Source of the DNA: Salvelinus alpinus
Taxonomy: Eukaryota; Chordata; Actinopteri; Salmoniformes; Salmonidae
DNA: 64,000 nucleotides
Reading direction: 5' to 3'
Assembly (NCBI RefSeq): GCF_045679555.1
Contig: NC_092092.1
Location: forward strand, 12,586,690 to 12,650,689
The translations under genes were made by a program, and so were the position numbers. The notes under the pieces were generated by a model. That model did no database searches, had not been told where the DNA came from, and worked only from the letters and a program-made list of their open reading frames with translations. Shown here one piece after another: positions 980 through 40,157 of this stretch (positions are counted from its first letter, which is position 1; each line of letters starts with the position of its first letter).

Positions 980-1628
980 CTCAGTGTACAAAACATTGGG
1001 AACACCTTCCTAATATTGACTTACTTGTTACTTTTATCTCTAATTTTTATCCGTATTTTTTTGAATCTGCACTGTTGATTAGTAAGCATTTCACTGTAAC
1101 ACCTGTTGTATTTGGCGCATGTGACTAATAACATTTAATTTGACTTGCACCCCCTTTTGCCCTCAGAACAGCCTCAATTCATTGGGGCATGGACTCTATA
1201 ACGTGTCAAAAGCGTTCCACAGGGATGCTGGCCCATGTAGACTACATAGTTGTGTCAAGTTGGCTGGATGTCCTTTGGTTGGTGGACCATTCTTGATACA
1301 CATGGGAAACCGTTGAGCATGAAAAACCAAGCAGCGTTGCAGTTCTTGACACACAAAGCGGTGTGTCTGGCACCTACTACCATACCCCGTTCAAAGGCCC
1401 ATTCACCCTCTGAATGGCACACATACACAATCCATGTCTCAATTGTCTCACAGTGTAAACATCCTTCTTTAACCTGTCTCCTCCCCTTCATCTACACTGA
1501 TTGAAGTGGATTTAACATGAGTGACATAAATGTGACATAAATAAGGGATCATAGCTTTCACCTGGATTCACCTGGTCAGTCTATGTCATGGAAAGAGCAG
1601 GTGTTCGTAATGTTTTGTACACAGCGTA
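980..1628. mobile_element. Non-autonomous DNA transposon with terminal inverted repeats
   Basis: The ends are inverted repeats: TGTACAAAACATT at 985-997 and AATGTTTTGTACA at 1609-1621 match exactly, and the similarity extends to about 30 bp each side (AGGTGTTC... near 1600). No intact transposase is present; short ORFs inside have no recognisable domain. A LINE tail is inserted near the left end (1037-1143). The superfamily cannot be fixed by eye. Confidence 0.75.
1037..1143 (+). mobile_element. 5'-truncated LINE 3' tail nested in the DNA transposon
   Basis: Contains the tail motif GTAAGCATTTCACTGTAA followed by ACACCTGTTGTATTTGGCGC and ATGTGACTAATAACATTTAA, the same tail seen at 5380-5458, 13905-14022, 35050-35120 and 48640-48714. 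It interrupts the transposon, so it inserted later. Confidence 0.75.
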
Positions 1629-5716: not shown

Positions 5717-6745
5717 GTTGGTGACTGATGTCTGCTGCTGTATGTCTCCCCTCTTGGTCACCCATCCCCACAGCCTTGGTGACTGATGTCTGCTGCTGTA
5801 TGTCTCCCCTCTTGGTCACCCATCCCCACAGCCTTGGTGACTGATGTCTGCTGCTGTATGTCTCCCCTCTTGGTCACCCATCCCCACAGCCTTGGTGACT
5901 GATGTCTGCTGCTGTATGTCTCCCCTCTTGGCCACCCATCCCCACAGCCTTGGTGACTGATGTCTGCTGCTGTATGTCTCCCCTCTTGGTCACCCATCCC
6001 CACAGCCTTGGTGACTGATGTCTGCTGCTGTATGTCTCCCCTCTTGGTCACCCATCCCCACAGCCTTGGTGACTGATGTCTGCTGCTGTATGTCTCCCCT
6101 CTTGGTCACCCATCCCCACAGCCTTGGTGACTGATGTATGCTGCTGTATGTCTCCCCTCTTGGCCACCCATCCCCACAGCCTTGGTGACTGATGTCTGCT
6201 GCTGTATGTCTCCCCTCTTGGCCACCCATCCCCACAGCCTTGGTGACTGATGTCTGCTGCTGTATGTCTCCCCTCTTGGCCACCCATCCCCACAGCCTTG
6301 GTGACTGATGTCTACTGCTGTATGTCTCCCCTCTTGGTCACCCATCCCCACAGCCTTGGTGACTGATGTCTGCTGCTGTATGTCTCCCCTCTTGGTCACC
6401 CATCCCCACAGCCTTGGTGACTGATGTCTACTGCTGTATGTCTCCCCTCTTGGTCACCCATCCCCACAGCCTTGGTGACTGATGTCTGCTGCTGTATGTC
6501 TCCCCTCTTGGCCACCCATCCCCACAGCCTTGGTGACTGATGTCTACTGCTGTATGTCTCCCCTCTTGGCCACCCATCCCCACAGCCTTGGTGACTGATG
6601 TCTGCTGCTGTATGTCTCCCCTCTTGGTCACCCATCCCCACAGCCTTGGTGACTGATGTCTGCTGCTGTATGTCTCCCCTCTTGGCCACCCATCCCCACA
6701 GCCTTGGTGACTGATGTCTGCTCCTGTCTGTCTCTCCTGTCAGCC
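5717..6745. repeat. 58-bp minisatellite, about 18 copies
   Basis: The unit begins TTGGTGACTGATGTCTGCTG and runs to ATCCCCACAGCC. The spacing is exactly 58 bp. Units differ at a few fixed sites (TTGGTCACC/TTGGCCACC; TCTGCTG/TCTACTG; one TATGCTG). The final unit is degenerate (6718-6745). Since 58 is not a multiple of 3, the minus-strand ORFs are repeat artefacts. Confidence 0.97.
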
Positions 6746-6759
6746 ACCCATCGGCACCC

Positions 6760-14389: not shown

Positions 14390-17300
14390 ATGGGTGAACC
14401 AGTGTCTGAAATGTGTGATCACCTCATCAAAGCTGTTAACGTGATGATGGACGCTGAATCTAGTCAAATATATCGTCTGGAGGCCCTAAAGGTACCTTGA
14501 TGGCTAGATGCTAGTTAGCTAACGTTAGCTGTTAAGGCGTCAGCTAGCTAGCTAGCTTTCCCAGTTGCGATGTGGTTACTTGACTGAGAATGGGCTGTGT
14601 TATACAAATACATAGCTAGCTAGTTATAACTTAGCATTATAGACGTCGATCGTGGCATTTTACTATGTCTATTGCATGGATTAATCAATGGGCGTAGTTT
14701 GCTAGCCATTTAGCTAACTAGCTAGCTAACGTCAGATGGCTAACATGCCATTCCCATCACGTTGCCAGCTGCAGATTTCATTCATTGCACACCGGTAGCA
14801 ACCTAGATATCTGTGCAAAACCATTACCGATGCCTGATGCACTCAAACTGAATGCAAGATCACTTATGCCAAGAATTTATCCTAGACATATTGATTGCGT
14901 TGAATAAACTTGAGTTATTCAGTGTTTTGAGAGCGTCTTGCTAGATTGCCAGCAGCTACTTACTAGTTACAGTAGCAATCTTTGACTTCTCCTAAGTCAC
15001 TTCTTTGTAAATCTAAATTATATTTATAACTATGACTGATATCATTGCAAGTTCCCCGTTTTGATGTTTCAAACGTCAAGGTAGCTAATTGAGTGAGTGC
15101 ATATTATTAACTTGTCCATCGTGTCTCTTTTTCTCTTCAGTTTTGTGAAGAATTCAAAGAGAAGTGTCCATTCTGTGTTCCATGTGGGCTACAGTTAGCA
15201 GATAAAGCCCAAACACCAGTGGTGAGGCACTTTGGTCTACAGATACTGGAGCACGTCATCAAGTGAGTTCATGAGTATATTTGGCTTTATGATTCAGTTC
15301 TGTACATTTACATTTTAGTCATTTAGCAGACACTCTTATCCAGAGTGACTTGCTTAAGTTAAGTGCCTTGCTCAAGGGCACATAAACATATTTTTTTCTA
15401 GTTGGCTCAGGGATTCGAACCAGTGCCCTTTCGGTTACTGGCCCAATGCCCTTAACCGCTAGATTACCTGCCGCTCCATCATTGTCATCAAGATATTTCC
15501 CTACACATGTGGACTGGACGAGTCCTGCCAATGTGTTCCCCAAAACCTTGTTTTTCTTCATGTTGAGAATAGGTTCAGATGGAACAACATGCCACAGCAG
15601 GAGAAAGTCCAGCTGAAGAACTGTGCCATGGGGCTGTTGTCAACTGTAAGTCTGTCTGGGTGATAAACACCCTGTTTCTCTATTTTTCTAGAAAAGGTAT
15701 GTGGCAGACAAGATGATGAAGGGAATTAATGGTGGTCTGTCCACCGAATAGCAAATATAGTAAAATAAAAAGTAGAAATAAACCAACAAATTCCGCATTG
15801 TTGCGTGATCTGTTAGGTGTATATTAATTAATATGCTGAGACTAGTCCGTTCCCTGACTGGCACACTTCCTCTCTGCAGGGCACCTATCCGATCCTGGAG
15901 GAGGAGAGTCACATCAAGGACGTTCTCGCACGGATCATAGTGGAGATGATCAAGAGAGAATGGCCTCAGCACTGGCCTGACATGCTCAAGGAGATGGAGG
16001 CACTCACCAGCATAGGGGTGAGTCAGCACTTTCCATTTCAGTGTTTCCCCTAGGTTGTTATGTTGGCGGGTGTCAACTGCCAAGGCCCCCCCCCCCGGAG
16101 CAACTTTCAGGGCTCAAAACATCAATTGATTCAATTGGAGAGTACATTACAGTATACAAATAAAGTTGTTGCGATCAGATTGTCAACTCCCTCCTCCCTC
16201 TCCCTCCCTCATTCCCTCCCCCAGGAGGCCCAGACAGAGCTGGTGATGATGATCCTGCTGCGGCTGGCGGAGGACGTGATCACCTTCCAGACCCTGCCCG
16301 CCCAGCGCCGCAGGGACATCCAGCAGACCCTCACCCAGAACATGGATAGCATCTTTAGCTTCCTGCTCACCATCCTGCAGCTCCACGTCGACGAGTACCG
16401 CAAACTGGTAAACAGACAATGGTTACCCTTGTCTGTCTCATGGTGAATATTTTTTTGCGGCAGTATTTTTCACCTCTTTTATTGATATGCGCTACCTTTT
16501 TGTATCTCTTCCAGAAAAAAATACCAGGCCAAGAATTGCAGGTAGGAAGGAGTGTTTTAGATGTACTACAATATATATTCTAATGTATTATATTTACATT
16601 TAGACACCCAGCTAAAGAGACTTCTCTGTTCTGCCCCTACCCCCTTTTTCCCATCTCTCCCCTCCCTACTCCTTCCTTCCTCCTCTTCCCTCCCTCTGTT
16701 TCCTGGCCCCTCTCCCCCCGGTTAGGCCAAGGCCCACTGTCGTGTAGGTGTGGCTGCTCTGAACACCCTGGCAGGTTACATAGACTGGGTGGCCCTGGCC
16801 CACCTCACCAATGACAACTGTCGCCTGCTGGAGATGCTGTGTCTGCTGCTCAGTGAGACAGAGCTGCAGCTGGAGGCTGCCGAGTGCCTGCTCATCGCCA
16901 TCAGCCGCAAGGTTAGTGCACAGTACTAGACACTCCCCTTACTGCAGACAGGCTCTGTAGGACCTGACAGGCCCCTTTTTGTCCAGACACTCCCCTTACT
17001 GCAGACAGGCTCTGTAGGACCTGACAGGCCCCTTTTTGTCCAGACACTCCCCTTACTGCAGACAGGCTCTGTAGGACCTGACAGGACCCTTTATGTCCAG
17101 ACACTCCCCTTACTGCAGACAGGCTCTGTAGGACCTGACAGGCCCCTTTATGTCCAGACACTCCCCTTACTGCAGACAGGCTCTGTAGGACCTGACAGGC
17201 CCCTTTATGTCCAGTCACTCCCCTTACTGCAGGCACACCCCTTTCTAGGACAGGACAAGATATTTGTTTACGGCTCCCGAGTCTAAGACACTGCATCTCA

Positions 17301-20300
17301 GTGCTAGAGGCATCACTACAGTCCCTGGTTCAATTCCAGGCTGTATCACATCCGGCTGTGATTGGGAGTCCCATAGGGCGGCGCACAATTGGCCCAGCGT
17401 CATCCGGTTTTAGCCGGGGTAGGCCGCCATTGTAAATAAGAATTTGTTCTTTAAATGACTTGCCTAGTTAAATAAAGAAAAAATATATTTGTTGAAATGT
17501 GAAATGGAGTTCTACAGCTACTGAATGGCCAGTACTAGTCAGGTACGTCACAGGGCTGTGAAAACAGCTGTGTCACCTTAACGTCTTAAAGACAGTACTG
17601 TGCAGCTGTCTTCATCGACCTGGCCAAGGCTTTTGACTCTGTCAATCACCGCATTCTTATCGGCAGACTCAACAGCCTTGGTTTCTCAAATGACTGCCTC
17701 GCTTGGTTCACCAACTACTTTTCAGACAGACTTTAGTGTGTCAAATTGTAGGGCCTATTGTCCGGACCTGTGGCAGTCTGGGGTTACCACAGGGTTCAAT
17801 TCTCGGGCCAACTCTTTTCTCTGTATATATTAATGATGTCGCTCTAGCTGCGGGTGATTCCCTGATCCACCTCTACACAGACGACACCATTCTGTATACA
17901 TCTGGCCCTTCTTTGGACACTGTGTTAACTAATCTCCAAACAAGCTTCAATGCCATACAACACGCCTTCCGTGGCCTCCAACTGCTCGTAAATGCTAGTA
18001 AAACCAAATGCATGCTTTTCAACCGTTCGCTTCCCGCCCGACCAGCATCACTACTCTGGACGGTTCTGACTTAGAATATGTGGACAACTACAAATACCTA
18101 GGTGTCTGGCTAGAATGTAAACTCTCCTTCCAAATTCATATTAAACAATATTAAATCTAGAATCGGCTTCCTATTTCACAACAAAGCCTCCTTCACTCAC
18201 GCCGCCAAACATACCCTCGTAAAACTGACTATCCTACCGATCCTCGACTTCGGCGATGTCATTTACAAAATAGCCTCCAACACTACTCAGCAAATTGGAT
18301 GTAGTCTATCACAGTGCCATCCGTTTTGTCACCAAAGCCCCATACACCACCCACCACTGCGACCGGTATGCTCTCGTTGGCCCTCGCTTCATACTCATCG
18401 CCAGACCCACTGGCTCCAAGTCATCTATAAGTCTATGCTAGGTAAAGCTCCGCCTTATCTCAGCTCGCTGGTCACGATAACAACACCCACCCGTAGCACG
18501 CGCTCCAGCAGGTATATCTCACTGGTCATCCCCAAAGCCAACACCTCCTTTGGCCGCCTTTCCTTCCAGTTCTCTGCTGCCAATGACTGGAACGAATTAC
18601 AAAAATCACTGAAGCTGGAGACTTATATTTCCCTCACTAACTTTAAACATCAGCTATCTGAGCAGCTATCCGATCGCTGCAGCTGTACATAGCCCATCTA
18701 ATCTACCTACCTCATCCCCATATTGTTTTTATTTACTTTTCTGCTCTTTTGCACACCAGTATTTATACTTGCACATCATCATCTGCTCATCTATCACTCC
18801 AGTGTTAATCTGCTAAATTGTAATTACTTTGCTACTTGGCCTATTTATTGCCTTACCTCCTCACGCCATTTGCACACACTGTATATACTCTTTTTTTTCC
18901 TATTGTGTTATTGACTGTACGCTTGTTTATTCCATGTGTAACTCTGTGTTGTTGTTTGTGTCGCACTGCCTTGCTTTATCTTGTAAATGAGAATTTGTTC
19001 TCAACTGGCCTACCTGGTAAAATAAATGTGAAATATCTATATATTTTTTAAATGTGCCTGGTGTCTCCACAGGGGAAGCTGGAGGACAGGAAGCCGCTCA
19101 TGGTGCTGTTTGATGACGTCGCCATGCACTACATCTTGTCCGCAGCACAGTGAGTAACCATTCCCCTCGTCACCCATAAGGCTTTACAAAGAAGCATTTC
19201 TAGCTCGTTCTGGCTTCTCATTCTCATTGGTTTGTGGCTACAGGTCTGCAGATGGAGCAGCAACATGCAACAAATCCTCTCCGACACAGTGAGTAGCCTA
19301 CACATGTTGGTGTTCAACGTCAGTGCCTGCCCAGCAGTCTTATGTTGTTTTGCTCCAGAACAGGGTTAATATTCAGCATTAGCATTGGAGCTCATATGGC
19401 CTGTTCTTTTTCTTTCTTTCTGTGAAGTGTGCTGTGTTTAAATCAAGTTTGATTTGACCCCCCCCCAGGCCAGTGGTGGAGAGACACTACATCTTCCTGA
19501 AGAGGCTTTGTCAGGTCCTGTGTTCCCTTGGCAGCCAACTCTGCTTCTTAGTGGTGAGTCTGTCTGCACTGTCTTTGATTACGATCATCTATTTACTATA
19601 TTGTTTTATGTATGTATTTATTTATAGTACTTGATGAATCTGTCCTTTGTCTTATGTATTTCTAATGCAGGGTTCAGATGTGGAGGTAGATGTACCTGCA
19701 AACCTCAGCAAGTACACAGAAGCATTCCTGGCCTTCACCACTCACCCAAGCCAGGTGAGTTACCAACTGTTACAGTAAAGTACCAGCCAGGTGAGTTACC
19801 AACTGTTACAGTAAAGTACCAGCCACAGGCTCATGATTCAAATCCCATACAGCTATCTAACACTACTGTTTCTCCATATCTCCCTTTGTCAATTCTGGGT
19901 TTCGAGCACTGAACGTTGACAGGTTTATTCTTTCATTTTTTGATCTGTTCTGATAATCTATTCTACTCTGAACTGAAGTATTTATTTTCTTTCCCCACCA
20001 GTTCCTAAGATCTTCCACCCAGATCACATGGGGAACCTTATTCAGACATGAGATTCTCTCCAAGGATCCTGTCATCATCCAGATGATGATCAAGTACTTC
20101 AGAGCCACCATGACCAACCTAGTCAAGGTGAGACAGGCTACAACATACGTGCATCCAAGACTTTGTGCAGGTGCACATTAAAAGTATCAAAATGTTCATT
20201 AGAAAAATGAGCAAGTGAAGGACTCATTGAGTTACACACAAACTATGATAAGTAATGACAAGTACACCAAAAGGTTGAGCTTCTCCACTATTTATATTGT

Positions 20301-35300: not shown

Positions 35301-37461
35301 TGGACCTGCTCAGTAAGTCCAGACTCTGGGAGAAAGGACAGGTTAATGGGATGTAGGGAGCGACTAAGTAGCACTTTATATGGAGTTTCTATATTGAGCA
35401 TGTTTTTTTGTCCAGAAGAAACAATCTGGTCCCTTGAAACTGTTCATAGGAATTTAGTTCTGCTGCACATCCAGATTTAATAGGTTTGGGGTATGTGGGG
35501 TGGATTAGGGTTGGGGTATGTGGGGTGGATTAGGGTTGGGGTATGTGGGGTGGATTAGGGTTGGGGTATGTGGGGTGGATTAGGGTTGGGGTATGTGGGG
35601 TGGATTAGGGTTGGGGTATGTGGGGTGGATTAGGGTTGGGGTATGTGGGGTGGATTAGGGTTGGGGTATGTGGGGTGGATTAGGGTTGGGGTATGTGGGG
35701 TGGATTAGGGTTGGGGTATGTGGGGTGGATTAGGGTTGGGGTATGTGGGGTGGATTAGGGTTGGGGTATGTGGGGTGGATTAGGGTTGGGGTATGTGGGG
35801 TGGATTAGGGTTGGGGTATGTGGGGTGGATTAGGGTTGGGGTATGTGGGGTGGATTAGGGTTGGGGTATGTGGGGTGGATTAGGGTTGGGGTATGTGGGG
35901 TGGATTAGGGTTGGGGTATGTGGGGTGGATTAGGGTTGGGGTATGTGGGGTGGATTAGGGTTGGGGTATGTGGGGTGGATTAGGGTTGGGGTATGTGGGG
36001 TGGATTAGGGTTGGGGTATGTGGGGTGGATTAGGGTTGGGGTATGTGGGGTGGATTAGGGTTGGGGTATGTGGGGTGGATTAGGGTTGGGGTATGTGGGG
36101 TGGATTAGGGTTGGGGTATGTGGGGTGGATTAGGGTTGGGGTATGTGGGGTGGATTAGGGTTGGGGTATGTGGGGTGGATTAGGGTTGGGGTATGTGGGG
36201 TGGATTAGGGTTGGGGTATGTGGGGTGGATTAGGGTTGGGGTATGTGGGGTGGATTAGGGTTGGGGTATGTGGGGTGGATTAGGGTTGGGGTATGTGGGG
36301 TGGATTAGGGTTGGGGTATGTGGGGTGGATTAGGGTTGGGGTATGTGGGGTGGATTAGGGTTGGGGTATGTGGGGTGGATCAGGGTTGGGGTATGTGGGG
36401 TGGATCAGGGTTGGGGTATGTGGGGTGGATCAGGGTTGGGGTATGTGGGGTGGATCAGGGTTGGGGTATGTGGGGTGGATCAGGGTTGGGGTATGTGGGG
36501 TGGATCAGGGTTGGGGTATGTGGGGTGGATCAGGGTTGGGGTATGTGGGGTGGATCAGGGTTGGGGTATGTGGGGTGGATCAGGGTTGGGGTATGTGGGG
36601 TGGATCAGGGTTGGGGTATGTGGGGTGGATCAGGGTTGGGGTATGTGGGGTGGATCAGGGTTGGGGTATGTGGGGTGGATCAGGGTTGGGGTATGTGGGG
36701 TGGATTAGGGTTGGGGTATGTGGATTAGGGTTGGGGTATGTGGATTAGGGTTGGGGTATGTGGATTAGGGTTGGGGTATGTGGGGTGGATTAGGTTTGGG
36801 GTATGTGGGGTGGATTAGGGTTGGGGTATGTGGGGTGGATTAGGGTTGGGGTATGTGGGGTGGATTAGGGTTGGGGTATGTGGGGTGGATTTCAGTGTGG
36901 CCATATTTCCTAACATTGATCCTTTCCCCTCAGCTCACGCCTGCATACTGAAAAAAGTTCCTGAGCCAGCAGGGAATAAGGAGGATGTGGATGGTAAGTG
37001 TTCCCTGATCCCTACTTGTTCCCTGATCCCTACTTGTTCCCTGATCCCTACTTGTTCCCTGATCCCTACTTGTTCCCTGATCCCTACTTGTTCCCTGATC
37101 CCTACTTGTTCCCTGATCCCTACTTGTTCCCTGATCCCTACTTGTTCCCTGATCCCTACTTGTTCCCTATTCCCTACTTGTTCCCTATTCCCTACTTGTT
37201 CCCTATTCCCTACTTGTTCCCTGATCCCTACTTGTTCCCTATTCCCTACTTGTTCCCTATTCCCTACTTATCTCCATGTTTCCAAGGGAAGAAAAGCATC
37301 ACTCAGGGTCCACCCCCTCATTCGTTCTACCTTTTGTGTCCTATTGTTTGTAGAGGATGAGATGATGTCCACTGAGTCCCAGGCAGTCACAGCCTCTCCA
37401 GCCCAGCCAACAGGCGAGATGACTGAGCTGGGGAAGTGTCTACTCCAACACGAGGTCGGCA

Positions 37462-37541
<80 letters not shown>

Positions 37542-40157
37542 CTATAGCAGGGGTGTTCAACTAATTCCATGTAGGACCTAGTTTCTGCTGGTTTTCGCTC
37601 CTCCCTTGTACTTGATGAATGAGTAAAGGTCACTAATTAGTAAGGAACTACCTTCACATGTTTGTCTAGGTCTTAACTGAAATGAAAATCCAAAAACCCA
37701 CAGACACTAGGCCCTGTGTGGAATGCGTTTGACACCCCTGATCTACAGCATCGACCCCTGGCAGTGTGACAGAACTCTCTTCCTCTGCAGGACATCTATA
37801 TGACCTTGTTGACGATCTCGTTCACCTCTCTGTCCTGGAAGGACACCAGCAACTGTCACCGCACCGCCTCCATGGTGTGCTGGACCCTGCTGCGACAGGT
37901 AGGCTGTTACCCTGCTGCGACAGGTAGGCTGTTACCCTGCTGCGACAGGTAGGCTGTTACCCGGCTGAGGCAGGTAGGCTGTTACCCGGCTGAGGCAGGT
38001 AGGCTGTTACCCGGCTGAGGCAGGTAGGCTGTTACCCGGCTGAGGCAGGTAGGCTGTTACCCGGCTGAGGCAGGTAGGCTGTTACCCGGCTGAGGCAGGT
38101 AGGCTGTTACCCGGCTGAGGCAGGTAGGCTGTTACCCGGCTGAGGCAGGTAGGCTGTTACCCGGCTGAGGCAGGTAGGCTGTTACCCGGCTGAGGCAGGT
38201 AGGCTGTTACCCGGCTGAGGCAGGTAGGCTGTTACCCGGCTGAGGCAGGTAGGCTGTTACCCGGCTGAGGCAGGTAGGCGGTTACCCGGCTGAGGCAGGT
38301 AGGCGGTTACCCGGCTGAGGCAGGTAGGCGGTTACCCGGCTGAGGCAGGTAGGCGGTTACCCGGCTGAGGCAGGTAGGCGGTTACCCGGCTGAGGCAGGT
38401 AGGCTGTTACCCGGCTGAGGCAGGTAGGCTGTTACCCGGCTGAGGCAGGTAGGCTGTTACCCGGCTGAGGCAGGTAGGCTGTTACCCGGCTGAGGCAGGT
38501 AGGCTGTTACCCGGCTGAGGCAGGTAGGCTGTTACCCGGCTGAGGCAGGTAGGCTGTTACCCGGCTGAGGCAGGTAGGCTGTTACCCGGCTGAGGCAGGT
38601 AGGCTGTTACCCGGCTGAGGCAGGTAGGCTGTTACCCGGCTGAGGCAGGTAGGCTGTTACCCGGCTGAGGCAGGTAGGCTGTTACCCGGCTGAGGCAGGT
38701 AGGCTGTTACCCGGCTGAGGCAGGTAGGCTGTTACCCGGCTGAGGCAGGTAGGCTGTTACCCGGCTGAGGCAGGTAGGCTGTTACCCGGCTGAGGCAGGT
38801 AGGCTGTTACCCGGCTGAGGCAGGTAGGCTGTTACCCGGCTGAGGCAGGTAGGCTGTTACCCGGCTGAGGCAGGTAGGCTGTTACCCGGCTGAGGCAGGT
38901 AGGCTGTTACCCGGCTGAGGCAGGTAGGCTGTTACCCGGCTGAGGCAGGTAGGCTGTTACCCGGCTGAGGCAGGTAGGCTGTTACCCGGCTGAGGCAGGT
39001 AGGCTGTTACCCGGCTGAGGCAGGTAGGCTGTTACCCGGCTGAGGCAGGTAGGCTGTTACCCGGCTGAGGCAGGTAGGCTGTTACCCGGCTGAGGCAGGT
39101 AGGCTGTTACCCGGCCGAGGCAGGTAGGCTGTTACCCGGCCGAGGCAGGTAGGCTGTTACCCGGCCGAGGCAGGTAGGCTGTTACCCGGCCGAGGCAGGT
39201 AGGCTGTTACCCGGCCGAGGCAGGTAGGCTGTTACCCGGCCGCGGCAGGTAGGCTGTTACCCGGCCGCGGCAGGTAGGCTGTTACCCGGCCGCGACATCC
39301 TCTCTCTCTCTGACTCTGTTCTTCTGTTTAGGTCGTAGGGGGGAACCTTCTGCCAGAGGCGGTCACATGGTTCTATGCCAGTGTTCTGAAGGGACTGCAG
39401 ATGCACGGACAGCACGAGGTCTGTAACTCAGCCCTCACACAACTGGCCCTGATTATATATGACAACCTGGTGAGTAACACACTCACTCGCTCACACTCCC
39501 TCCCTTCATCTTTCTTCTTCCTCCTAACTCTACCTTTCCTCCCTCTCTGGGTCAGCGGCCACGGTACATTGAGCTAAGGAGTGTGATGACTCAGATCCCC
39601 AGCATCAATCTGGAGGCTCTGGACCAGTATGACCAGCGGCTGCTGGAGCCCAGCTCCACCCAGAAGGTGGGAGAGAAGAAGAGGAAGGACCAGTTCAAGA
39701 AGCTCATTGCCGGCACCGTGGGGGTAATACCACCTCCCACAGCTAGATGGGGGTGTTCTTCCACTTGTATGTTTTTCTGCTGAGAAGACCTAGAATTATT
39801 TAATAACAAAATAATGTCCAAAATGCGTCCATTGTGACTGTTGAAATGGATATAATTTATATGATATAAGTTATACTTTGTTGGCGAGTGCTGGCAGTAT
39901 TTTTCATATAAGTTGAATTAAATAGGTCCTGTACACTCAGTTATAATAAGACAACCATTCTATCCAGACAGATTGTAACTGTATTTGATCTGTCCTCTCC
40001 ACAGAAAGCTCTGGGCCAGCAGTTTAAAAAGGAGGTACATATCAGAAATCTCCCATCTCTCTTTAAGAAGCCCAAGCTGGAGAAAAGGGACATTGTGGAG
40101 CCCAGTGAGACTGGATCTCTAGCAGCTCTCTTCTCCCCAACACAGAACGACATCTAG
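14390..40157 (+). CDS. xpo5: Exportin-5, complete gene in 33 coding exons
   Basis: Exportin-5 is a RanGTP-dependent karyopherin-beta that carries pre-miRNA hairpins and other short double-stranded RNA from nucleus to cytoplasm. Exons: 14390-14491, 15141-15262, 15573-15645, 15880-16017, 16225-16407, 16515-16541, 16726-16911, 19073-19149, 19244-19288, 19469-19553, 19671-19754, 20002-20127, 20371-20461, 20613-20741, 21303-21418, 21709-21864, 21950-21991, 22313-22402, 22592-22791, 23287-23383, 23568-23749, 31197-31297, 31564-31660, 32138-32274, 32569-32666, 32981-33027, 35206-35312, 36934-36993, 37354-37454, 37791-37898, 39332-39469, 39556-39723, 40005-40157. They join in frame to 1,221 residues (human 1,204). 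Recognisable blocks are REWPQHWPDM (exon 4), LTQNM (exon 5), the Xpo1-type helices, FDSDEDFN-like FDSDEDFNSFF (exon 13), ACSSIIKM (exon 18), SFCVYTILGVVKR (exon 21), an acidic loop (exon 27) and LPSLFKK near the C terminus. The ATG has G at -3 and +4. All introns are GT-AG except 24/25, which is AT-AC. Intron 21 (7.4 kb) is almost all transposons. Confidence 0.97.
15304..15475 (-). mobile_element. HpaI-type SINE in xpo5 intron 2
   Basis: Reverse-complement HpaI SINE. The tail motif is at the left (TTTAGCAGACACTCTTATCC); the tRNA-like head is at the right, with B box GGATTCGAACC near 15413 and CCCTTAACCGCTAGATTACC. Compare the forward copy at 112-286. Confidence 0.85.
16931..17225. repeat. 57-bp minisatellite, about 5 copies, in xpo5 intron 7
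   Basis: The unit runs from CACTCCCCTTACTGCAGACA to CCCCTTTTTGTCCAGA. Variation is GACCC/GCCCC and TTTTTG/TTTATG. 57 is a multiple of 3, which explains a long minus-strand ORF with 19-residue repeats; it is not a gene. Confidence 0.93.
17269..17478 (+). mobile_element. tRNA-derived SINE in xpo5 intron 7
   Basis: tRNA-like head with B box GGTTCAATTCC near 17329, a body with GGCGCACAATTGGCCCAGCG, and a tail GTAAATAAGAATTTGTTCTT..TAGTTAAATAAAG. The tail matches the 3' end of the LINE 110 bp downstream. Confidence 0.85.
17594..19047 (+). mobile_element. 5'-truncated LINE with reverse transcriptase remnant in xpo5 intron 7
   Basis: Begins inside the RT domain with FIDLAKAFDSVNH. The catalytic box reads YTDD in place of YADD near 17876. 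It continues through LVNASKTKCM and ends with a LINE C-terminal segment (SFQFSAANDWNELQKSLK) to a stop near 18692. Several frameshifts break it. The 3' UTR ends GTAAATGAGAATTTGTTCTC..GGTAAAATAAATGTG. Jockey/L2-type by RT motifs; inactive. Confidence 0.9.
19749..19823 (+). repeat. Tandem duplication of the exon-11 splice donor
   Basis: A unit of about 36 bp starting AGCCAGGTGAGTTACCAACT and ending AGTAAAGTACC occurs twice in direct tandem. The first copy spans the real exon-11 donor (CCAG|GTGAGT at 19754/19755); the second copy supplies an identical donor downstream. Confidence 0.9.
22846..23032 (-). mobile_element. tRNA-derived SINE in xpo5 intron 19
   Basis: Reverse-oriented. The tail complement TTATTTAACC..AAGAACAAATTCTTATTTAC is at the left, and the tRNA-like head with GGATTCGATC and CCACGCTCTAACCACTAGGC is at the right. 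Same tail type as 17269-17478. Confidence 0.8.
23840..24190. repeat. Unclassified interspersed repeat in xpo5 intron 21
   Basis: Contains GGAAAAACTCCCTAGAAACG and CAGGCTCTGAGGGGTGGCCA, which I recall as a very common fish interspersed repeat. No TIR, LTR or coding domain seen, so the class is left open. Confidence 0.5.
24240..25640 (+). mobile_element. Salmonid repeat family X, copy 1
   Basis: Aligns by eye along its length with 29515-30919 and, inverted, with 27160-29517. Shared blocks are CCAAATTCAAA, TTCGATAAAGTTCATATTTA, AACCGGAGAATTCCTTTGT, TGCCTGCCATATGAGTTCTG and an end TACTCAATACTGCC..GAAGTTAA. No coding domain is seen. A non-autonomous DNA element is likely but not proven. Confidence 0.75.
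25727..26800 (-). mobile_element. Sleeping Beauty-like Tc1 element, right end missing
   Basis: The left inverted repeat has the two direct repeats typical of salmonid Tc1 elements: GGAGGTTTACATACACCTTA near 25738 (outer) and GTCAGAAGTTTACATACACT near 25928 (inner). The transposase remnant is on the minus strand. The right inverted repeat and transposase start are absent at about 26795, so the copy is truncated. Confidence 0.9.
25951..26790 (-). pseudogene. Tc1 transposase remnant (Sleeping Beauty-like)
   Basis: Minus-strand pieces in different frames: 26790-26515 holds the second HTH region (KVSISTVKQVLYRHSLKGRS, RKKPQLQ); 26494-26237 crosses HNDH-like and GGGSIM-type residues with stops; 26259-25951 is an intact C-terminal segment with FQTDNDPKHTS (second catalytic Asp) and PLENLWAELKK (catalytic Glu) and ends normally. 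Frameshifts and a missing N terminus make it inactive. Confidence 0.88.
26820..27060. repeat. Unclassified fish interspersed repeat
   Basis: Contains GATTAATCGGCATCGGCTTT and ATAATCGGTATCGGCGTTGA followed by TCGGTTGACCTCTAAT, which I recall as a common terminal sequence of a fish repeat. No class can be assigned from the sequence alone. Confidence 0.5.
27160..29517 (-). mobile_element. Salmonid repeat family X, copy 2 (inverted), with a nested SINE
   Basis: Reverse orientation to copies 1 and 3. TTGGATAGAAAACACTCT near 27784 is the complement of the GAGTGTTTTCTATCC-type block in the other copies, and the element ends at GGCCAGACAGGTTAAC (29517). It is split by a SINE at 27272-27768. It abuts copy 3 head to head. 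Confidence 0.75.
27272..27768 (-). mobile_element. Long tRNA-derived SINE with target-site duplication
   Basis: GC-rich element in a very AT-rich surround. On the minus strand it starts GGCCTCCCGGGTGGCGCAGT, has B box GGTTCGCGCCC near 27690, and ends in an A/T-rich tail. It is flanked by GCATATTATTATTATTATT on the left and GCATATTATTATTACTATT on the right, a near-perfect target duplication. ORFs across it (up to 144 codons) are GC-driven artefacts. Confidence 0.88.
29515..30919 (+). mobile_element. Salmonid repeat family X, copy 3
   Basis: Starts TTAACTTTTTTGGGCTGCAA and ends ACTCAATACTGCCCC..AGAAGTTAAC. Aligned blocks with copy 1 include ATGATCTACATCAGATGACA, GAGTTCTGTTATACTCACAG and the CACTTCCTG block. 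No coding content seen. Confidence 0.75.
30920..31196. other. End of xpo5 intron 21, nothing recognised
   Basis: Unique-looking sequence leading to the exon-22 acceptor (TTGTAG at 31191-31196). No repeat recognised. Confidence 0.4.
32275..32568 (+). other. U12-type AT-AC intron of xpo5
   Basis: Exon 24 ends ATGCTCC and the intron begins ATATCCTTC, matching the U12 AT-AC donor consensus. The intron ends GTGTGTAC with AC at 32567-32568, and CTCCTTAAT at 32542-32550, about 19 nt upstream, matches the U12 branch-point consensus (TTCCTTAAC). Using these sites gives RPMLRVFLKQLVL, matching human exportin-5 RPMLRVFVKPLVL; no GT-AG choice restores this frame. Confidence 0.9.
33185..33229. mobile_element. 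Orphan Sleeping Beauty-type terminal repeat
   Basis: AAGTGTATGTAAACTTCCGA followed by CTTCAACTATA is the outer end of a salmonid Tc1 inverted repeat. No element body adjoins it; a LINE begins immediately to the right. Confidence 0.7.
33230..35120. mobile_element. LINE with inverted 5' half (twin-priming structure) in xpo5 intron 26
   Basis: 33230-34435 is LINE 5' sequence in minus orientation. A 180-codon ORF at 34278-33736 encodes an AP-endonuclease-type start: LANVQSLENKIDELRGRL, ILCFTESWLND, GYTMYRQDR, GKTRGGGL. From about 34445 to 35120 the LINE's 3' part runs in plus orientation (CTGCACCGTTGAGAGCATCT, then the GTAAGTAAGCATTTCACTTC tail). Both halves match the LINE at 2690-5458. The segment between the breakpoints (about 4055-4435 of that copy) is lost. 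Inactive. Confidence 0.82.
35486..36891. repeat. 25-bp G-rich minisatellite, about 57 units, in xpo5 intron 27
   Basis: The unit is TTGGGGTATGTGGGGTGGAT followed by TAGGG. A block of units (about 36375-36695) has GGATCAGGG in place of GGATTAGGG, and three 20-bp deleted units lie near 36715-36775. The array stops about 40 bp before the exon-28 acceptor. Long three-frame ORFs are artefacts. Confidence 0.98.
36999..37268. repeat. 18-bp minisatellite directly after the exon-28 donor
   Basis: The unit TTCCCTGATCCCTACTTG is repeated about 15 times. Later units carry TTCCCTATTCCCTACTTG. The first unit starts 5 nt after the GT of the exon-28 donor (GATG|GTAAGTG). 18 is a multiple of 3, giving an artefactual long frame that joins exon 28 to exon 29. 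Confidence 0.96.
37463..37540. repeat. (CA)n microsatellite, xpo5 intron 29
   Basis: About 78 bp of CA dinucleotide beginning 8 bp after the exon-29 donor. Confidence 0.97.
37548..37740. mobile_element. hAT-like MITE with 8-bp target duplication
   Basis: Ends CAGGGGTGTTCAAC and GTTTGACACCCCTG are inverted repeats of the hAT type (CAGGGGTGTCAAA). It is flanked by ATCTATAG (37540-37547) and ATCTACAG (37741-37748), an 8-bp duplication with one mismatch. 193 bp, non-coding. Confidence 0.88.
37884..39297. repeat. 25-bp minisatellite built from the exon-30 splice donor, 56 donor copies
   Basis: The unit GTAGGCTGTTACCCGGCTGA followed by GGCAG starts inside exon 30. The first copies read CTGCTGCGACAG|GTAGGC, identical to the real junction (37898/37899). 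CAG|GTAGGC then recurs every 25 bp to 39274, 56 times. Variants are ordered: three GCGACAG units, then GAGGCAG, a run with GTAGGCGG near 38275-38390, then CCGAGGCAG and CCGCGGCAG at the end. Confidence 0.97.

Follow-up and report, generated by a model that had tools for sequence, protein, structure and literature searches.

The 64,000-nucleotide stretch of the Salvelinus alpinus genome analyzed here (contig NC_092092.1, forward-strand positions 12,586,690 to 12,650,689; hereafter the window, numbered from its first letter) carries xpo5, the gene for exportin-5, and one intron of this gene is made up of a minisatellite, whose unit includes the splice donor of the preceding exon, and a short unrepeated end. 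A tblastn search with a human exportin-5 query yielded 28 rows that we counted as 30 exon blocks between 14396 and 40139. The two exons flanking the array (37791-37898 and 39332-39466) join in phase 0, and a 138-residue query composed of these two exons and the following one matches human exportin-5 (PDB 3a6p_A, residues 1023-1159) with an E value of 6.9e-50. An earlier interpretation of this DNA from its letters alone, referred to below as the sequence-only reading, had located the array at the donor of exon 30. The junction is real, whereas the exon number could not be confirmed: the exon is the 27th of the 30 counted blocks and the fourth-last, and it would rank 29th if the gene had 32 exons.

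The intron (37899-39331) has a length of 1,433 nt and comprises the array and a 34-nt end. The window contains 58 matches to CAGGTAGGC, 56 of which follow one another in exact 25-bp steps from 37896 to 39271, with the GT of CAG|GTAGGC (the bar marks the splice junction) at positions 37899 to 39274; the two others lie outside the array at 19008 (minus strand) and 52508 (plus strand). In 100 shuffled sequences the mean number of matches was 0.50 and the largest was 4, such that none reached 58. Tandem Repeats Finder (TRF) reported a period of 25, 56.3 copies and 99% matches for 37884-39290; when the partial last unit is included, the array extends from 37884 to 39297. In register, each unit corresponds to 15 nt of exon end followed by 10 nt of intron start. 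Pattern matches and TRF thus confirm the number and spacing of the donors given by the sequence-only reading (56 between 37899 and 39274), and exon joining and unit register bear out its statement that the 25-bp unit lies across the real exon/intron junction; the span that it had assigned to the array, 37791..39331, begins with the exon and is wider than the array proper. With head-to-tail units in the range of about 10-100 bp, high identity and ordered variants, the array is a minisatellite, and the genuine donor of the preceding exon forms part of the repeated unit. The main 25-mer occurs exactly 41 times in the whole assembly (G000, 2.37 Gb, 928 contigs), every time inside the xpo5 donor array. 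The features are compiled in the table.

Table. Features of the xpo5 donor array, its surroundings and related repeats (window coordinates unless a contig is named)
Feature	Position	Strand	Remark
xpo5 fourth-last coding exon, 108 nt, phase 0	37791..37898	+	ends CTGCGACAG
56 full 25-bp units, ACCC[T/G]GC[T/C]G[C/A]G[A/G]CAG|GTAGGC[T/G]GTT	37884..39283	+	exon end makes up the first 15 bases
Real (first) donor, CAG|GTAGGC	37896..37904	+	same 9-mer at the matching junction of the C3 copy
In-frame TAG	37950..37952	+	met by intron retention and by donors 4 to 56
Partial 57th unit, ACCCGGCCGCGACA	39284..39297	+	without donor
Unrepeated 34-nt intron end: pyrimidine tract, branch-point-like CTGAC (A at 39313), acceptor TTTAG	39298..39331	+	C3 copy has similar 34 nt
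Next xpo5 exon, 135 nt, 45 codons	39332..39466	+	frame kept if skipped
Second donor-spanning tandem duplication, 36-bp unit, 2.1 copies	19749..19825	+	full copies identical; second donor would add in-frame TAA
33-bp minisatellite of the C3 copy, about 26.8 kb	G000:C3:63820189-63847003 (L015-L017)		851 TTCAC, no AG on sense strand

The 56 full units belong to five types arranged in six runs (units 1-3, 4-15, 16-20, 21-49, 50-54 and 55-56, followed by the partial unit), and units 4-15 and 21-49 represent one and the same type with 41 units. This order is not random, as 10,000 shuffles of the unit order gave a mean of 25.9 runs and a minimum of 18. Units 1 to 3 are identical and unit 1 holds the last 15 nt of the exon, which supports the proposal of the sequence-only reading that the donor itself seeded the array. 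Its further proposal, a spread from the exon side, stands only in part. Units 2 and 3 match the exon and suggest recent copying at this side, whereas the exon-like CGACA state is also found in the partial unit at the opposite end, units 55 and 56 have C at column 10 in common with units 1 to 3, and the middle of the array is of the derived GAGGCAG type. Internal expansion of the derived type between old ends explains this pattern better than a wave starting from the exon.

Two xpo5 paralogues are reported for salmonids (PMC7765534), and a second xpo5 copy is present on another contig (C3) of the same genome, to which three of the six matches found belong. Between the two copies, the 108-nt exon agrees at 102 bases and the 135-nt exon at 122. 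At the matching junction, the C3 copy has the identical 9-nt donor as a single occurrence and no donor array. It follows that the array either arose on the line of the window copy or vanished without trace on the other, and origin on the window copy's line is the simpler of the two. The matching intron of the C3 copy measures 27,022 nt and ends with the conserved 34 nt, including the branch-point-like CTGAC, common to both copies. It is likewise nearly filled by a minisatellite, for which TRF reported a pyrimidine-rich 33-bp unit, 848 copies, 89% matches and a length of 26,815 nt, but this unit is unrelated to that of the donor array, lies on the acceptor side and includes neither the donor nor the final acceptor. 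AG is absent from position 95 to 27,021 of this intron. Selection against AG (0 found against 81 expected from base content) was considered and not accepted as an explanation, because the unit itself is devoid of AG and only 25 of 876 A residues lie outside TTCAC. Also in the C3 copy, just ahead of the full next-but-one exon, a partial duplicate of this exon (cggccacagtacatggagctgagg...) with its own CAG was seen (L015, about 1300-1540, minus strand).

The consequences of using any donor but the first are uniform. When spliced to the next two exons, all 55 downstream donors lead to a premature stop, at codon 75 (counted from the exon start) for donor 2, at codon 54 for donor 3 and at codon 53 from donor 4 onward. 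The first two of these stops follow from a frame shift, while donors 4 to 56 include the TAG at 37950. The sequence-only reading had stated both that readthrough reaches this TAG and that downstream donors are out of frame or run into it, and it was right on either count. The last junction considered is 208, 296 and 324 nt downstream of the stops of donors 2, 3 and 4, respectively. Skipping of the following 135-nt exon, on the other hand, leaves the frame open.

As the 9-mer is the same in all 56 donors and the first alone keeps the frame open, the first donor is probably used in most transcripts. It would also be favored by exon length, which is shortest with this donor, and by the very small introns that remain when a donor close to the 3' end is used (58 nt with the last one). 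The U1 duplex energy amounts to -10.7 for the array donor and likewise for the C3 donor, compared with -14.0 for a consensus donor. An RNA structure favoring the first donor was sought by predicted local folding over the 56 donors and no difference was found: the mean unpaired probability ranged from 0.20 to 0.35, with 0.27 for the first donor and 0.32 for that of the C3 copy. The idea that the units act as recursive (zero-length exon) splice sites was dropped, since the pyrimidine tract in the unit is weak; in the 20-nt stretch before the CAG of one unit, compared in approximate register, the pyrimidine share was 0.5 as opposed to 0.8 before the true acceptor.

Arrays of this kind are already known in human genes, and what is new here is a fish xpo5 case with an informative paralogue; none of the CC-licensed papers searched for fish minisatellites across a donor or for arrays in xpo5 names this one. 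The best precedent is the variable number tandem repeat in intron 18 of human ABCA7, which has a 25-bp unit starting at the exon 18 donor and 23.7 units in the human reference. In ABCA7 (PMC5954066), retention of one unit was 2 +/- 1% and unaffected by array length, no relation between array length and nonsense-mediated decay (NMD) was seen, and with longer arrays the 132-nt next exon was skipped more often and expression fell, an effect suggested to depend on protein motifs in the unit. Both arrays consist of a 25-bp tandem unit directly at an exon with the real donor included, in both, splicing at the second donor lengthens the exon by 25 nt and puts it out of frame, and in both the next exon is in frame (132 nt in ABCA7 and 135 nt in xpo5). 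They differ in gene and unit sequence and in that the ABCA7 unit starts at the donor GT and its array is given as intronic, whereas the first xpo5 unit begins 15 nt inside the exon; moreover, length effects were measured for ABCA7, while the xpo5 array is known from sequence. Human IFI6 (6-16) also has such a minisatellite, with a 12-bp unit. It reportedly gives rise to multiple splice donors, going by the title of an article by Turri et al. from 1995. It resembles the xpo5 array in having a tandem unit with a splice donor at the exon end, and two downstream repeat units are reported to serve as donors (PMC4526556). The unit is a different one, and three mRNA species are reported there, whereas any downstream donor breaks the frame in xpo5.

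Taken together, we arrive at the following explanation, to which we assign a probability of about 0.72. A tandem duplication across the xpo5 exon/intron junction, after the two gene copies had separated, would have founded the minisatellite, and ordinary array turnover would then have enlarged it to 56 units. Donor 1 would serve most transcripts, leak to donor 2 and perhaps donor 3 would be low and cleared by NMD, and the array would mostly be a tolerated passenger, a neutral one being the simplest reading. If its length does matter, this would be as in ABCA7, via more skipping of the following in-frame exon or lower expression and not via donor choice. Some points weigh against this explanation. 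The first donor is the likely main choice, and we infer its use from sequence. None of the five variable columns of the unit falls within the nine donor positions, which hints weakly at donor constraint (P = 0.08 by chance, not significant). Finally, the reported use of downstream donors in IFI6 means that the leak in xpo5 could be larger.

The sequence-only reading had gone further in proposing that array length tunes xpo5 output, in that more donors would entail more downstream use, more premature stops and NMD. Each of the 55 downstream donors does give such a stop, and NMD usually requires a stop at least 50 nt before the last exon junction, such that it would be expected for donors 2 to 4. 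Tuning by this route is nevertheless disfavored by the best precedent, because in ABCA7, which has the same unit length and design, one-unit retention was about 2% whatever the length of the array, and array length bore no relation to NMD; in addition, the other xpo5 copy manages without a donor array. We regard it as quite improbable. By analogy, a better functional hypothesis would be that a longer array causes more skipping of the exon at 39332-39466, yielding a shortened exportin-5 in frame, or changes expression. The open frame after skipping and the rise in exon skipping with falling expression described for ABCA7 speak for it; its case is one of analogy, however, with a unit of other sequence that meets the exon differently and motifs in the ABCA7 unit that may be decisive there, and we consider it unlikely, if less so than tuning by NMD. 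With slim odds, the paralogues may even have diverged in opposite halves of one splicing reaction, one with the donor repeated 56 times and the other with a branch-point-like, pyrimidine-rich unit repeated about 850 times and no AG over 26.9 kb, and array lengths could then determine how often each paralogue skips the next exon, and hence total exportin-5 and microRNA export. Arrays of near-identical units are hard to assemble, and the figure of 56 may be off. An origin of the array, or of its copy number, in expansion or collapse during assembly is very improbable, given the ordered variant blocks (six runs against 25.9 expected), the intact flanks and a 3' unit that is a graded variant.

A second donor-spanning duplication is found within the same gene. 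At the donor of the xpo5 exon 19671-19754, a 36-bp unit is present as two identical copies and a remnant. At the matching point of the C3 copy, AGCCAG recurs 36 nt downstream without a full second copy, a pattern suggestive of a duplication that began at a short direct repeat; the two copies in the window gene show the starting stage of a donor-spanning array. Other repeats were noted in passing. An array of a 57-bp unit (5.4 copies, 16928-17232) starts 17 nt past the end of another xpo5 exon and does not include the donor, and the C3 copy has only diverged, shorter similarity at this site. Two more minisatellites lie between xpo5 exon blocks (35481-36891, 25 bp x 57, and 36999-37269, 18 bp x 15), and an array of 17.8 copies of a 58-bp unit at 5718-6752 has a unit that ends in the acceptor-like CCCATCCCCACAG. 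Across the assembly, three CAGGTRAG words spaced 4-30 nt apart gave 13,128 + 9,093 matches against 4,025 + 4,353 for the reversed pattern (22,221 against 8,378, about 2.7-fold), an excess from which no conclusion is drawn, because the matches are not independent arrays and the counts are uncorrected for single-word frequency and for repeat families. Ten arrays could be distinguished among the matches listed, all within the first 12.3 Mb of contig C1, and were read upstream of the first motif. A frame of at least 30 codons was open to the motif in five of them, in one case within the array itself. Five upstream frames from four of the ten loci (L057, L060, L061 and, twice, L062) gave no Pfam match at an E value of 1, the queries being short and of low power, and adjacency to an exon could be shown for none of the ten.

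The xpo5 array offers a natural test of donor choice where dozens of identical sites are available, and the same genome supplies the control: its other xpo5 copy has this donor once. The two-copy duplication at another xpo5 donor represents an early stage of such arrays. Donor-spanning arrays matter in people, as ABCA7 illustrates, and a fish array with the same unit length and design, situated in a microRNA-pathway gene, would open a second gene to measurements of length effects.

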